Positions 3,446 through 7,274 of a DNA stretch of 10,180 bases are shown here, one piece after another (within the stretch, counting starts at the first letter, position 1; each line of letters starts with the position of its first letter). The notes beneath the pieces were generated by a model that was not told where the DNA came from, did not search any database, and worked only from the letters and a program-made list of their open reading frames with translations. The translations under genes were made by a program, and so were the position numbers. Source of the stretch: Clostridiales bacterium (GTDB lineage Bacteria > Bacillota > Clostridia > Christensenellales > Aristaeellaceae); the NCBI GenBank assembly GCA_012512355.1, contig JAAZEI010000166.1:1-10180 (forward strand), read 5' to 3'.

Positions 3446-3474
3446 TTGCGCTTTTAACAAAATACTCATATAAT
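3446..3474 (+). promoter_or_regulatory. Promoter of the structured RNA and zinc-ribbon unit
   Basis: TTGCGC (3446-3451), a spacer of exactly 17 bp and a consensus TATAAT (3469-3474) predict transcription starting at about 3481, exactly where the closing stem of the RNA begins. The preceding stretch (3351-3445) holds no gene and only a 4-bp GTGC/GCAC hairpin near 3364. I see no terminator after the SOS operon, so some read-through into this unit is possible. Confidence 0.75.
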
Positions 3475-3480
3475 GTGCAT

Positions 3481-3688
3481 GGTTGATATGCGGTCTGTGG
3501 TTGAAAGCCGATGCCAGTCGCAGGCGAAACGGTCCACGTAATCCGAAGAAACTTCGGTGAGCATGGTGCGGTCTAGAGATAAGCCCGGCCGGATTTATCC
3601 GAGAGAGTGGCGTGAGAGCAAATTGTGGGTAGCCAAGCTCCAGCCGGCGAGTGTGGGGTCAAAAACCAGGTCAGCGCAACATCAGCCC
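3481..3688 (+). ncRNA. Structured RNA of about 207 nt, possibly raiA-motif RNA
   Basis: The 5' end predicted from the promoter pairs with sequence about 200 nt away. GGTTGAT (3481-3487) pairs with ATCAGCC (3681-3687), one wobble included, followed by TGCG (3489-3492) with CGCA (3675-3678). Inside this closing stem are TGTGG (3496-3500) with CCACG (3534-3538), and GCC/GGC (3513-3515/3523-3525). A perfect CCGAAG-AAA-CTTCGG hairpin (3543-3557) and CGGA-TTTA-TCCG (3590-3601) follow. A long-range CCGGC (3585-3589) with GCCGG (3643-3647) is possible. TGGC (3608-3611)/GCCA (3632-3635) with GAGC (3616-3619)/GCTC (3637-3640) would form a pseudoknot. No open frame with a ribosome binding site lies within. 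The size, compactness and Firmicutes context remind me of the raiA motif. That name is from memory and not verified; a riboswitch-like leader of the zinc-ribbon gene is the alternative. No standard riboswitch core was recognised. Confidence 0.7.
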
Positions 3689-3715
3689 ATTTAAAATCAG
3701 GGGGATTACCATATC

Positions 3716-4000
3716 ATGTACCAAGACAAGAATCTGGTATGCCGCGACTGCGGCCAGGAATTTGCGTTCACCGCAGGAGAACAGGAATTCTACGCCGAGA
3801 AGGGCTTCCAGAACGAGCCCACGCGCTGCAGGGACTGCCGCCAATCACACAAGACCAACCGCAACAACAGCAATGCACCCCGCGAAATGCACAGCGCCGT
3901 CTGCGCACAGTGCGGAGCCCAGACACAGGTGCCCTTCCTTCCCAAGAGCGACCGTCCCATTTACTGCAGCGATTGTTTTTCGTCCATGCGCAGCAGGTAA
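3716..4000 (+). CDS. Small protein with two zinc ribbons
   Basis: A 94-residue soluble protein with two CxxC...CxxC zinc sites: Cys9/Cys12 with Cys38/Cys41, and Cys63/Cys66 with Cys84/Cys87. The first half, with LVCRDCGQEFAFTAGEQEF, EKGF and RCRDCR, is the probable zinc-ribbon domain seen in many small bacterial proteins. The second half, with CAQCG, VPFLP and RPIYCSDCF, is the CxxC-x17-CxxC domain that often accompanies it. A polar linker rich in Asn, Arg and Ser (43-60) joins them. Nucleic acid or ribosome binding is commonly guessed for such proteins but is unproven here. The start is ATG 3716 with AGGGGG at 3699-3704, a rather long 11-nt spacing. It begins 28 nt after the structured RNA, from the same promoter, and ends before a strong terminator. 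Confidence 0.85.
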   Translation: MYQDKNLVCRDCGQEFAFTAGEQEFYAEKGFQNEPTRCRDCRQSHKTNRNNSNAPREMHSAVCAQCGAQTQVPFLPKSDRPIYCSDCFSSMRSR

Positions 4001-4037
4001 TCCGCCGATAAATAAGCCGGTGCATCAAGCACCCCTT

Positions 4038-4072
4038 AACAAAAAGCCGGACAATTTGTCCGGCTTTTTGTT
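4038..4072. terminator. Strong bidirectional intrinsic terminator
   Basis: A perfect 17-bp inverted repeat around one base has a GC-rich core, GCCGGAC (4046-4052) with GTCCGGC (4058-4064), flanked by A5 on the left and T5 on the right. Both strands therefore end in a stem followed by a U-tract. It ends the zinc-ribbon transcript on the plus strand and the mannosidase transcript (stop at 4095) on the minus strand. A weaker GGTGC/GCACC hairpin (4019-4033) precedes it. Confidence 0.92.
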
Positions 4073-4094
4073 ATCTTCTTTTTTGAAAGCAGTA

Positions 4095-7000
4095 TTACCC
4101 AGACGAGTCAGAACCGGGCTTTAATTTTAGCGTTTTAACCTCAAAAGTATGGAAAGTCAGTGAAACACTATTATCCTCAACGGGCAATTCTTCCAATTCG
4201 TTTTCCAGCATATCACACACAAATGCCCTGCTAAACGCTTTATCCAGCGTCAGGGTACATTGTGTATCTGCCCGTTTTGACTCATACAGCCTGATAATAA
4301 TATCTCCGGTGCCGTCCTCGACGGGCTTGACTGTATCGATGAATACATTGTGGGCATCAACAGTAAAAGCGCTGAATGGCTCGCGCACACCCGGAATGAC
4401 CCTGAGCGGCACGTTAAGCGAATAGGCTTCGCGTACCACCGGCGATTCGAAAAAGGTGCCTTCCCATGCCGTGAACGCATAACTGAACTCATGATGACCA
4501 TTGTCAGCGCGCATCTCTGGGCTGGCAGCTGCCCGCAGCAGCGTCAGCCGCAGTTCGTTATCCAATTGACTGATACCGTATTTACAGTCATTGAGAACTG
4601 CTGCGCCATGATTCTGGTCACACAACGCGCTGTAGCGCTGGTTGCATACTTCAAAACGATCTTTATCATACAAACGAGAACGATGGGTGGGCCGCTTGAC
4701 ATAGCCAAATTGAATCTCATTGATCGCTTCATCGGTGTGCACCGCGATGGGGAAGGCGACTTTGAGCAGTCTATGGAGCTCATGCCATTCTACCTGCGTT
4801 ATAAAATCTAACCGCCGGCTGGCTGCGTCCAGAACGATGTCCTGGGTGAAGGTCGAGCTGGAAATCTTGCGCTGCATCTTCACGACAGCTCGCAGCCCAT
4901 CCTGTTGCGCAATCTGAAGACTGACTTGATCCTCTGTTTTAATTTCCTGCAGTTCATAGTTTGAATCAATATCCCAGGCATCAAACACCCGGGGCACATC
5001 TTTGTAAAGGAGCAAGCGATTCATGGGCCCTGCAGCAAACTCACGGCCTGACTCTTTATCCTTGAAGGAAACAATCTCCGCGCGATCATTAAGTAATATG
5101 CAAACATACATATTTTCCATAACGATGCCTTGAAGCGTGTGTACCGCTGTTGCTTTTGTCGTGACATTGGCAGCTCTCTGTTGAGGACGCAAAGACAGGG
5201 CACCCATAGACGGCACTGTCACCAGAGCCAATGCGCCTTGTTCATTGACGGTAACAGCCACTTGCTCTCCTCCGGGAATGACAGCACCCTGAGCGAAGAT
5301 CGGCGGTAGCTGGACCAGCCCTGTGCGCTCAAAGGAAGACGCATTAAGCACAGTGACGCCTTCCCCCCTCGCCATCAAATCAAAAGCTTCGACAGACACA
5401 TCCTGTGCTTTCGCGATCACGCGGTCAAGGTCTTTGCGCGCTTCTTCGTTGACCCTGGCGATAGACGATCCGGGAAGGATGTCATGGAATTGGTTAAGCA
5501 ACAAACGTTTCCAGGCTTGCTCCATCTCGGAATAGGGATAACTTCCTGTGGGAAGCAGGAACAGCGCGCCCCAAAGCTCTGCTTCACGCAAAGCCAGCTC
5601 CGCTTTGCGATTTCCCCGCTTAATAGCAGCCTGTGAAGTATAGACCCCTCTGTGAGCCGCAAAATACAATTCGCCTGTATATTTGGGTTTGTTGGGATGC
5701 ATTTCCTCCATATCTTCAAAAAACTCAACAGGTCCTTCCATTCGCACACGCGGAAGGCCTTCCAGGTCCGCCTCACGCTGCAGATATTCAAGATGATCAC
5801 GTCAGGGACCGCCGCCACCGTCGCCATAGCCAAAGGGAAACAGAAATGCATCAAGGTCCTGTTTTTGAACGCGCTTTTTCCATGTCTGGCTAATTTCGCA
5901 GGGATCAGGACGGTAAGTATAGCTGGTTGGTAAAAAGGTGTCGATTTGTGAACCATCCGAGCCCTGCCAGGTAAAATAATGATTTGGAAACCGATCTCCC
6001 TCATTATATGACCAGAAGATTTTTTGGGTGACCAGGTACTTCACACCGCATCCATTTAAAATCTGCGGGAGTGCCGCGGAGTAGCCAAAGGTATCAGGCA
6101 GCCACAGCAAGACGCTGTCAATGCCAAACTCTTCCCGGAAATAACGCTTTCCAAAAAGCAATTGTCTGATGAGGGATTCGCCGCTGGTCATGTTGGTATC
6201 GGGCTCAACCCACATGGCCCCTTCGGCGATCCAGCGCCCCTCTTTGATTGCTTCCTTAATTCGCAAAAAGAGCTCCGGATAGTGCTCACGGCACATTTCA
6301 TATGAAGCAGGCTGACTTTGCAGGAACTTATACTCAGGATATTGTTTGAGCATGCGCAGCTGTCCGGCAAATGTGCGGGCGGTTTTGCGATGTGTCTCTG
6401 CCATGGGCCACAGCCAGGCAAGGGCCAGATGCGCGTTGCCCACCGCGTAGAATACAGGGGCAGTTGAACCATTGTGTGCGCTCATGACACCGTGAAGCGC
6501 TTCGCGTGCCAAGCGGTAGGATACGATGCGCTGATTTAAAGGCTGCTCAAAATCTGCCAGAAGAGTATATTCTGTCAGCGCTTTTGCGACTTTATCCGCT
6601 CTGAGGCTGTCAGGATCAAGCTCTTGCAGCAGCTGTTCCAAAGTGTCAACGTCCATATAGAGCTGGTAAGCCTCTTCATTCCATATCCCAAAGGTGCAGC
6701 CTTCCATGACTCTGCGTTTGCCTTCTTTGAGCGGATCAAGGTATGAGCCGGGCAGGACGGGGCCGGTAGCGCAGTTTGCCTGCGGGCTCTCAGGGAAGTA
6801 ATGTCCGGCATACGCTTCAATGAGCAAGTCAAAACGCTCACCTTCACGGCCGCTTGCAGTTAGCAGATTATCAGAAATTCTCTGGTGGGGTGCTGTCACC
6901 CAGTCAACGCGGTAGGTTCCAAATGCTGCGCCATCAACAAAAACGGTCGCCTCGCCGCCTGTATTGAGATCCATTACAATACGCTTGTTCTCGGCTTCTT

Positions 7001-7229
7001 TTGTCAGCTCTACTTCAGCCCGCAGCCAGCAATATTCATAAGTATGTCCCCAGTGAGTTCCATCAGGCACTGGTTTGAAATCACCCTTCATGGCGTCCTG
7101 CGAACTCAGATGCTCCATGGTCATGAAGCCTTCCAGAGGAATTTTGCCCAGCGGGATATACAAATCCTGCATCAGCGTATCCTTCCAGAGTTTCAGTCTT
7201 CCCTTCCATTCTGATTGTAAATACGACAT
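4095..7229 (-). pseudogene. GH38 alpha-mannosidase-like, interrupted by in-frame TGA
   Basis: The full frame is about 1044 codons, the usual length of bacterial GH38 alpha-mannosidases, cytoplasmic zinc enzymes that trim mannose from glycans. An N-terminal region (1-255) precedes the catalytic domain. WVEPDTN carries the presumed nucleophile Asp344, HYFTWQGSDGS lies near 425, and NQFHDILPGSS carries the conserved His582; the mannosidase C-terminal beta domains follow. Two defects stand out. In-frame TGA at codon 476, directly after GYGDGGGGP, splits it into 475- and 568-codon parts in one frame, the second without a ribosome binding site. The GHAHID-type motif reads GNAHLA (264-269), with a zinc-ligand Asp replaced by Ala269 and a preceding His by Asn265. 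Nothing else is broken, so decay is recent, or the protein is read through or non-catalytic. ATG 7229 is the start (AGGAGG at 7236-7241); the in-frame TTG at 7235 just follows this site and lies 6 nt upstream of the ATG. Confidence 0.85.
5802..5804 (-). other. In-frame TGA codon of the mannosidase frame
   Basis: Reading on the minus strand, GGP is followed by TGA and then RDHLEYLQREADLEGLPRV in the same frame, which is the normal family continuation. A small residue, usually Thr, is expected here. Ser (TCA) or Cys (TGC/TGT) to TGA would take one base change, and Thr two. A GCGGA/TCCGC hairpin lies about 30 nt downstream, but its loop does not resemble a bacterial SECIS element. Confidence 0.8.
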
Positions 7230-7274
7230 AAACAACCTCCTGATATGTCAAATTCTATTGGGTGATAAGATGAA

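Follow-up and report, generated by a model that had tools for sequence, protein, structure and literature searches.

A small double treble-clef zinc-finger gene follows raiA-motif RNAs in many sampled families of Bacillota

A full-length raiA-motif noncoding RNA, followed within tens of nucleotides by a gene for a small protein with two treble-clef zinc fingers (zf), has been found in a 10,180-nt stretch of DNA (the window) from Clostridiales bacterium (family Aristaeellaceae; assembly GCA_012512355.1, contig JAAZEI010000166.1). The same order on the same strand recurs in 158 of 231 raiA loci and in 23 of 40 families. The raiA RNA family itself is already known, as an abundant and widely conserved bacterial noncoding RNA whose mechanism is not known. 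The zf link, a zf paralogue tied to it and a group of shortened raiA RNAs appear to be new, and no report of the link was found in the literature searched, a search that did not cover all key papers. Because a specific small protein is encoded tens of nucleotides downstream in more than half of the sampled raiA families, the question of what raiA binds could be tested directly with two small components that can be purified, and the shortened RNAs are natural truncations with which the working core could be mapped.

An earlier note on this DNA, made from the letters alone, had guessed at a raiA-motif RNA. Comparison of the window with Rfam 15 (cmscan) gave a single strong match, to RF03072 at 3484-3684 on the plus strand (160.8 bits against a gathering cut-off of 101.3, E 3.6e-41, model positions 1-209), and membership of this family is virtually certain. 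The RNA itself can be explained without the note's other suggestion, that of an undescribed leader element. No second raiA copy was found in the genome (2.0 Mb, 367 contigs, 79% complete). The outer P1 stem, proposed earlier as 3481-3492 with 3675-3687, appears in the Rfam alignment as 3484-3492 with 3675-3684 (A3488 and C3680 mismatched, A3679 unpaired), is seen in homologues, and extends on direct reading to 3481-3483/3685-3687; its start coincides with the likely transcription start. Inner P1, nearly invariant, pairs 3495-3502 with 3664-3674 as judged from homologues. The possible pseudoknot noticed earlier can be placed by the same comparison in a long-range helix between the loop strand 3516-3522 and 3567-3573, whose base pairs covary; six of its seven pairs occur in 212-218 homologues, and double changes are seen in five of the six. 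Going by the accessible portion of PMC11751092, this helix may be equated with pk-1, and the peripheral domain at 3574-3651 (Rfam alignment, homologue comparison), which is absent from the shortened RNAs, would hold the helices P4-P8. That domain includes a closing helix (3585-3589/3643-3647) and a hairpin at 3590-3601 which, together with the directly read hairpin CCGAAG-AAA-CUUCGG at 3543-3557, makes up the internal hairpins that had been reported.

Covariation, which the earlier note had proposed as a check on the stems, was examined in 218 distinct raiA sequences from the 231 loci, the structure tested being Rfam's own, mapped via the window sequence. Double changes occur at 41 of the 56 Rfam pairs, and 76.8% of cells are paired, against 32-45% when the partners are slid by 1-3 columns. 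Among the helices, strong pairing is seen in the inner stretch of P1 (3489-3502), in the long-range helix and at 3585-3589/3643-3647. The pairs at 3489-3492 are formed in 184-209 of the homologues, many with double changes; support is weak for the outermost pairs, 3485-3488 (39-50% paired), and at the hairpin 3543-3557 the Rfam alignment has slipped out of register. The single-sequence folding energy of the window RNA is not unusual (z -0.18), and so the case for RNA structure is made by the covariance model and covariation.

The downstream gene (3716-4000, plus strand) encodes a protein of 94 amino acids that had been described as carrying two zinc ribbons; Pfam instead assigns two treble-clef fingers, PF13451 zf_Tbcl (87.6 bits, cut-off 24) and PF23477 zf_Tbcl_2 (74.8 bits, cut-off 27), and TIGR04272 is also matched (75.4 bits). 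Its eight cysteines are arranged as four CxxC pairs, and 41 of 96 columns are invariant among 12 aligned zf sequences.

Ahead of the RNA, a promoter can be read directly at 3446-3474 (plus strand), with -35 TTGCGC (3446-3451), a 17-nt spacer and -10 TATAAT (3469-3474). Its earlier description as a consensus promoter holds for the -10 box, which is perfect, and fails for the -35 box, a TTG-type sequence with three of six matches. A simple promoter scan of the window missed this site and listed only 3690-3717, at chance level (0.9). Across the survey, 215 of 226 raiA loci have a -10 box with at least five of six matches ending 0-19 nt ahead of the RNA, compared with 19 in a control stretch 200 nt further upstream. 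Between the end of the stem at 3687 and the ATG at 3716 lie 28 nt, as the earlier note had it, including the Shine-Dalgarno-like AGGGGG at 3699-3704 (direct reading); in all 158 linked loci the best match to AGGAGG reaches at least four of six, a figure without control. The note had also given the RNA no terminator of its own and placed the end of a shared transcript at 4038-4072. Indeed, none was found between the RNA and the gene, and a terminator scan located an intrinsic terminator of 17 pairs at 4037-4073 (plus strand). Judged from these sequence features, it is very likely that the raiA RNA and zf form one co-transcribed unit. A GH38 alpha-mannosidase on the minus strand at 4095-7235 is divided between two frames (N-terminal domain 5802-7235; middle and C-terminal domains 4095-5747), which points to a frameshift or an error of assembly.

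The extent of the association was surveyed through Rfam searches, which gave raiA matches in 125 of 150 genomes of the window's family, 44 of 121 of its order, 26 of 148 of its class and, for the phylum, 23 of 199 and then 47 of 398; the genome draws overlap and stricter filters were applied. The family search contributed all places above the cut-off (124 from 123 genomes, with five partial sub-cut-off matches dropped), and the other searches contributed every place, 12 sub-cut-off ones included. The 231 loci come from 230 sampled Bacillota genomes with 40 family codes and are weighted by design to the window's family, whose sample includes Candidatus Onthenecus intestinigallinarum and Candidatus Aphodomonas merdavium. 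A link was scored with a profile from window-family zf proteins, on the same strand and no more than 130 nt downstream. Outside the window's family it was found in 58 of 107 loci, and the zinc-finger connection that the earlier note thought worth noting thus extends well beyond a single locus. The linker between RNA and gene measures 28-118 nt (median 36) and falls within 28-66 nt in 153 of the 158, the five longest (113-118 nt) all belonging to family f191; the distance to the first matched codon is about 38 nt. Among named zf loci, raiA core words also stand just upstream of the gene in 30 of the best 80. Among the 73 loci without adjacent zf, six are cut by a contig end and 67 have the sequence present, 19 of the latter in the window's own family. 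These 19, where the RNA persists with no zf beside it, are what a chance or inert neighbourhood of no functional meaning could appeal to; the shared order and strand in 23 of 40 families, closely similar spacing in 22 of the 23 and the mere one or two zf copies in most genomes of the window's family render that explanation extremely improbable.

Terminators bear on how the two are expressed. Within 110 nt after the RNA, strict terminators are found in 0 of 158 zf-linked loci and in 10 of 67 unlinked ones (5 of 43 without a known neighbour, 5 of 24 with raiA or csp). Under relaxed settings within 100 nt, there are 4 among the 158 linked loci (5.4 expected), 15 without a known neighbour (2.4 expected) and 6 with raiA or csp (1.0 expected). 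Beyond the gene, a strict terminator lies within 150 nt of the zf stop codon in 101 of 155 linked loci, where base shuffles predict 0.6. The absence of a terminating expression platform that these counts indicate tells against raiA as a cis-acting leader of zf, which would sense a ligand or the zf protein (autoregulation) and set translation or stability of the zf mRNA. The near-constant short spacing, the lack of an intervening terminator and the -10 box directly ahead of the RNA are as such a leader would have them, and P1 and the core are retained beside zf even in shortened forms; an origin of ModT, the C. difficile RNA, from an ancient riboswitch is left open in the available text of PMC11706538. 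However, the raiA RNA persists without adjacent zf in the 67 loci, and complementation in trans has been reported in both C. difficile and C. acetobutylicum (PMC11706538, as far as accessible), and a cis-acting leader is unlikely. In 70 sampled loci, the Shine-Dalgarno sequence had a predicted accessibility of 0.35 with the RNA and 0.36 when the RNA was shuffled, energy folding recovering the raiA fold poorly.

The leader explanation also draws on zf genes without raiA, in which a leader of 47-262 nt, mildly more stable than shuffles, often stands after a promoter-like site (median z -1.27; 42 of 44 loci scored, one being without a site and one not placed, and the promoter choice being without control). 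Four such genes (L336, L343, L350, L117) combine a promoter-like site with a stable leader (z -2.6 to -5.3), for which no match over an Rfam cut-off was obtained.

Other genes related to translation or RNA are also found at raiA loci. HPF/RaiA lies downstream in the fetched stretch at no fewer than 38 of the 231 loci (at least 18 families; median distance 418 nt, range 99-1226), Csp downstream at eight or more (3 families, about 102 nt) and comFC upstream at 43 or more (12 families), these counts being lower bounds because single-query phmmer was used on stretches of unequal length. A csp gene stands between the raiA RNA and the RaiA/HPF gene in L152, L153, L166, L204, L206, L205, L215 and L308 (families f15, f44 and f157). 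The HPF/RaiA and Csp neighbours lend some weight to plain operon co-regulation, where the raiA RNA and zf, as growth-transition factors, would share one promoter and have separate jobs, as may also hold for the RaiA, Csp and ComFC encoded near other raiA RNAs. A sigma-factor gene at some zf loci points the same way. In seven raiA-lacking loci, chosen by eye from 13, zf is preceded by a gene most similar to sigma factors of the SigH group (L113, L114, L129, L133, L135, L143 and L147; mostly Oscillospiraceae-type, 7 of 7 tested), with matches below the equivalog cut-offs and above the sigma-70 superfamily cut-off. These SigH-like neighbours suggest a transition-phase theme, which has been counted for a raiA-zf module too.

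Co-regulation is further favoured by the lack of co-occurrence at genome level. In the 199 Bacillota genomes, zf was found in 131 and raiA in 23, and their presence is unassociated (zf in 18 of the 23 raiA genomes versus 113 of 176 others; Fisher p 0.24), with no zf match in 5 of the 23. The genomes of 50 of the 80 best named zf loci were also searched for raiA, 15 having been chosen as linked and 35 as having no visible adjacent raiA. In 33 of these 35 there was no raiA match; in one of the other two (L086) raiA lies beyond the contig end or elsewhere, and in the second (L097) zf and raiA are apart. The wide occurrence of zf without raiA, with the 67 raiA loci that have no adjacent zf, stands against an obligate pair. 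Two raiA-lacking arrangements, zf-csp-HPF at L109 and a ComF-like gene (under the model cut-off) followed by zf at L100, suggest that zf may have been part of an ancestral comFC-raiA locus. At L109:3551-3896, a sub-threshold match to the cspA thermoregulator (57.8 versus 78 bits) covers the csp gene adjoining zf.

Two observations weigh against separate jobs under one promoter and leave plain co-regulation somewhat unlikely: zf keeps to a short, nearly constant distance that RaiA and Csp do not share, and in the window's family a separate zf paralogue goes with the RNA. By profile score, zf matches in the 150 family genomes form a high class (102 listed places, at least 148 bits) and a lower one. 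A high-scoring zf lies beside raiA, within 700 nt of the match, at 98 of the 102 listed places; three of the exceptions are at contig ends (G105:C19, G140:C43, G073:C59), and in the fourth, G072, alignment with congeners reveals a shortened raiA, a 115-nt remnant 37 nt upstream of zf. The lower class, with at least 48 matches, is adjacent in one case (G074) among 48 listed places, and the 19 family genomes with raiA and no adjacent zf have the lower class or no zf. In a protein tree of 142 rows the two window-family classes separate. The linked or unlinked label changes 7 times on this tree compared with 47 after shuffling, although relatedness alone also favours few changes; the least number forced by well-supported branches is 3, the tree having few columns and many unresolved forks. 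Window-family raiA RNAs without zf (for example L004, L007 and L009) are nearer the Rfam consensus, with a median of 195.2 bits versus 175.7 for linked ones (19 versus 100 loci, kinship uncorrected).

The RNA itself can be much reduced next to zf. Families f42 and f93, with five loci each (L169, L170, L172, L309, L310, L173 and L311-L314), have RNAs of 113-120 nt that keep the raiA ends and core without P4-P8 and score 42-59 bits, under the Rfam cut-off. All of them precede zf, with 43-47 nt to the first matched codon, and the closest named relatives of one f93 zf protein include Tepidanaerobacter, Thermosediminibacter and Fervidicola. With the G072 RNA (L315:217-331), shortened forms number ten by model and one by alignment, and zf is adjacent in all. 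By the alignment with its congeners, some 85 nt are missing from the G072 RNA, the 3' strand of the long-range helix among them; its loop CAUGUU can pair with AACAUG beside the deletion, as read from the sequence, and the RNA falls under every cut-off (Rfam 21 bits; short model E 0.72). A model built from the shortened RNAs matches 44 of 398 Bacillota genomes, all within the 47 that are raiA-positive by Rfam. Among the 67 zf-less loci, one is shorter than 150 nt (L308), and its sequence contains N.

We favour the reading that RNA and protein form a co-transcribed module and that the RNA is trimmed from the mRNA. One promoter would give rise to the raiA RNA and, some 36 nt on, to the mRNA of the small double treble-clef protein, the usual end being the terminator after zf. 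Of this, the comparison shows the RNA identity, the conserved order and spacing, the promoter box, the frequent end terminator and the lack of a terminator between. Cleavage or trimming 5' of the mRNA would then release the RNA, which would act in trans, as its relatives in Clostridia do; the zf protein may be made together with it because both work together, most likely with zf serving as a cofactor or chaperone bound to the P1-P3-pseudoknot core in the passage from growth to stationary phase. As a whole this chain is finely balanced between belief and doubt. A functional partnership of some kind is fairly probable, while direct binding of the RNA by the zf protein is put forward tentatively. 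About as tentative is a historical version in which zf would be a dedicated raiA partner, the ancestral comFC locus having encoded an RNA-protein particle in cis. The short RNAs would then represent the least that the protein requires, the P1-P3-pseudoknot core, RNA-only lineages would have replaced or dropped the protein, and zf-only lineages would have dropped the RNA. Counted against partnership are that no relative of solved structure was established and that ModT is reported to have its trans-acting role without a zf neighbour in the available portion of PMC11706538.

Several raiA systems have been described with which the window can be compared. ModT of Clostridioides difficile is abundant, stable and trans-acting and affects the growth transition, and initial evidence only is given for proteins bound to raiA RNA (PMC11706538, in the parts accessible). 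In Clostridium acetobutylicum, raiA mutants are defective in sporulation and aggregation, what raiA does at the molecular level being described as not known in the portions available (PMC11706538, PMC11751092, PMC12286853, PMC11477304), and the RNA was seen by cryo-EM to have two pseudoknots and a compact tertiary fold (PMC11751092, likewise in part). The window RNA is like these two in matching the same covariance model, in the near invariance of its P1 and core words and in its covarying helices. Unlike the short ModT isoform, which has a terminator downstream (PMC11706538, accessible part), it has none that was found before zf. Its surroundings also differ. The commonest raiA neighbours have been given as comFC upstream (74%) and raiA downstream (66%) (Soares et al., cited in the accessible part of PMC11706538), whereas here the RNA is followed by zf; neither comFC nor HPF/RaiA, common but not defining neighbours, was found by Pfam among the eight window ORFs, and HPF had no match in this 79% complete genome, compared with 133 of 150 family genomes that have one. 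Both arrangements are combined in families f101, f114, f121, f124 and f132, where the order is comFC, raiA RNA, zf, HPF/RaiA. Compared with the f42 and f93 RNAs, the window RNA shares P1, P3 and the 5' and 3' core words and differs in being full length. The window protein resembles other zf_Tbcl/zf_Tbcl_2 proteins (CxxC-x17-CxxC), with both domains above curated cut-offs, and the raiA-linked copy in its family is set apart from them as a paralogue separate from the unlinked one.
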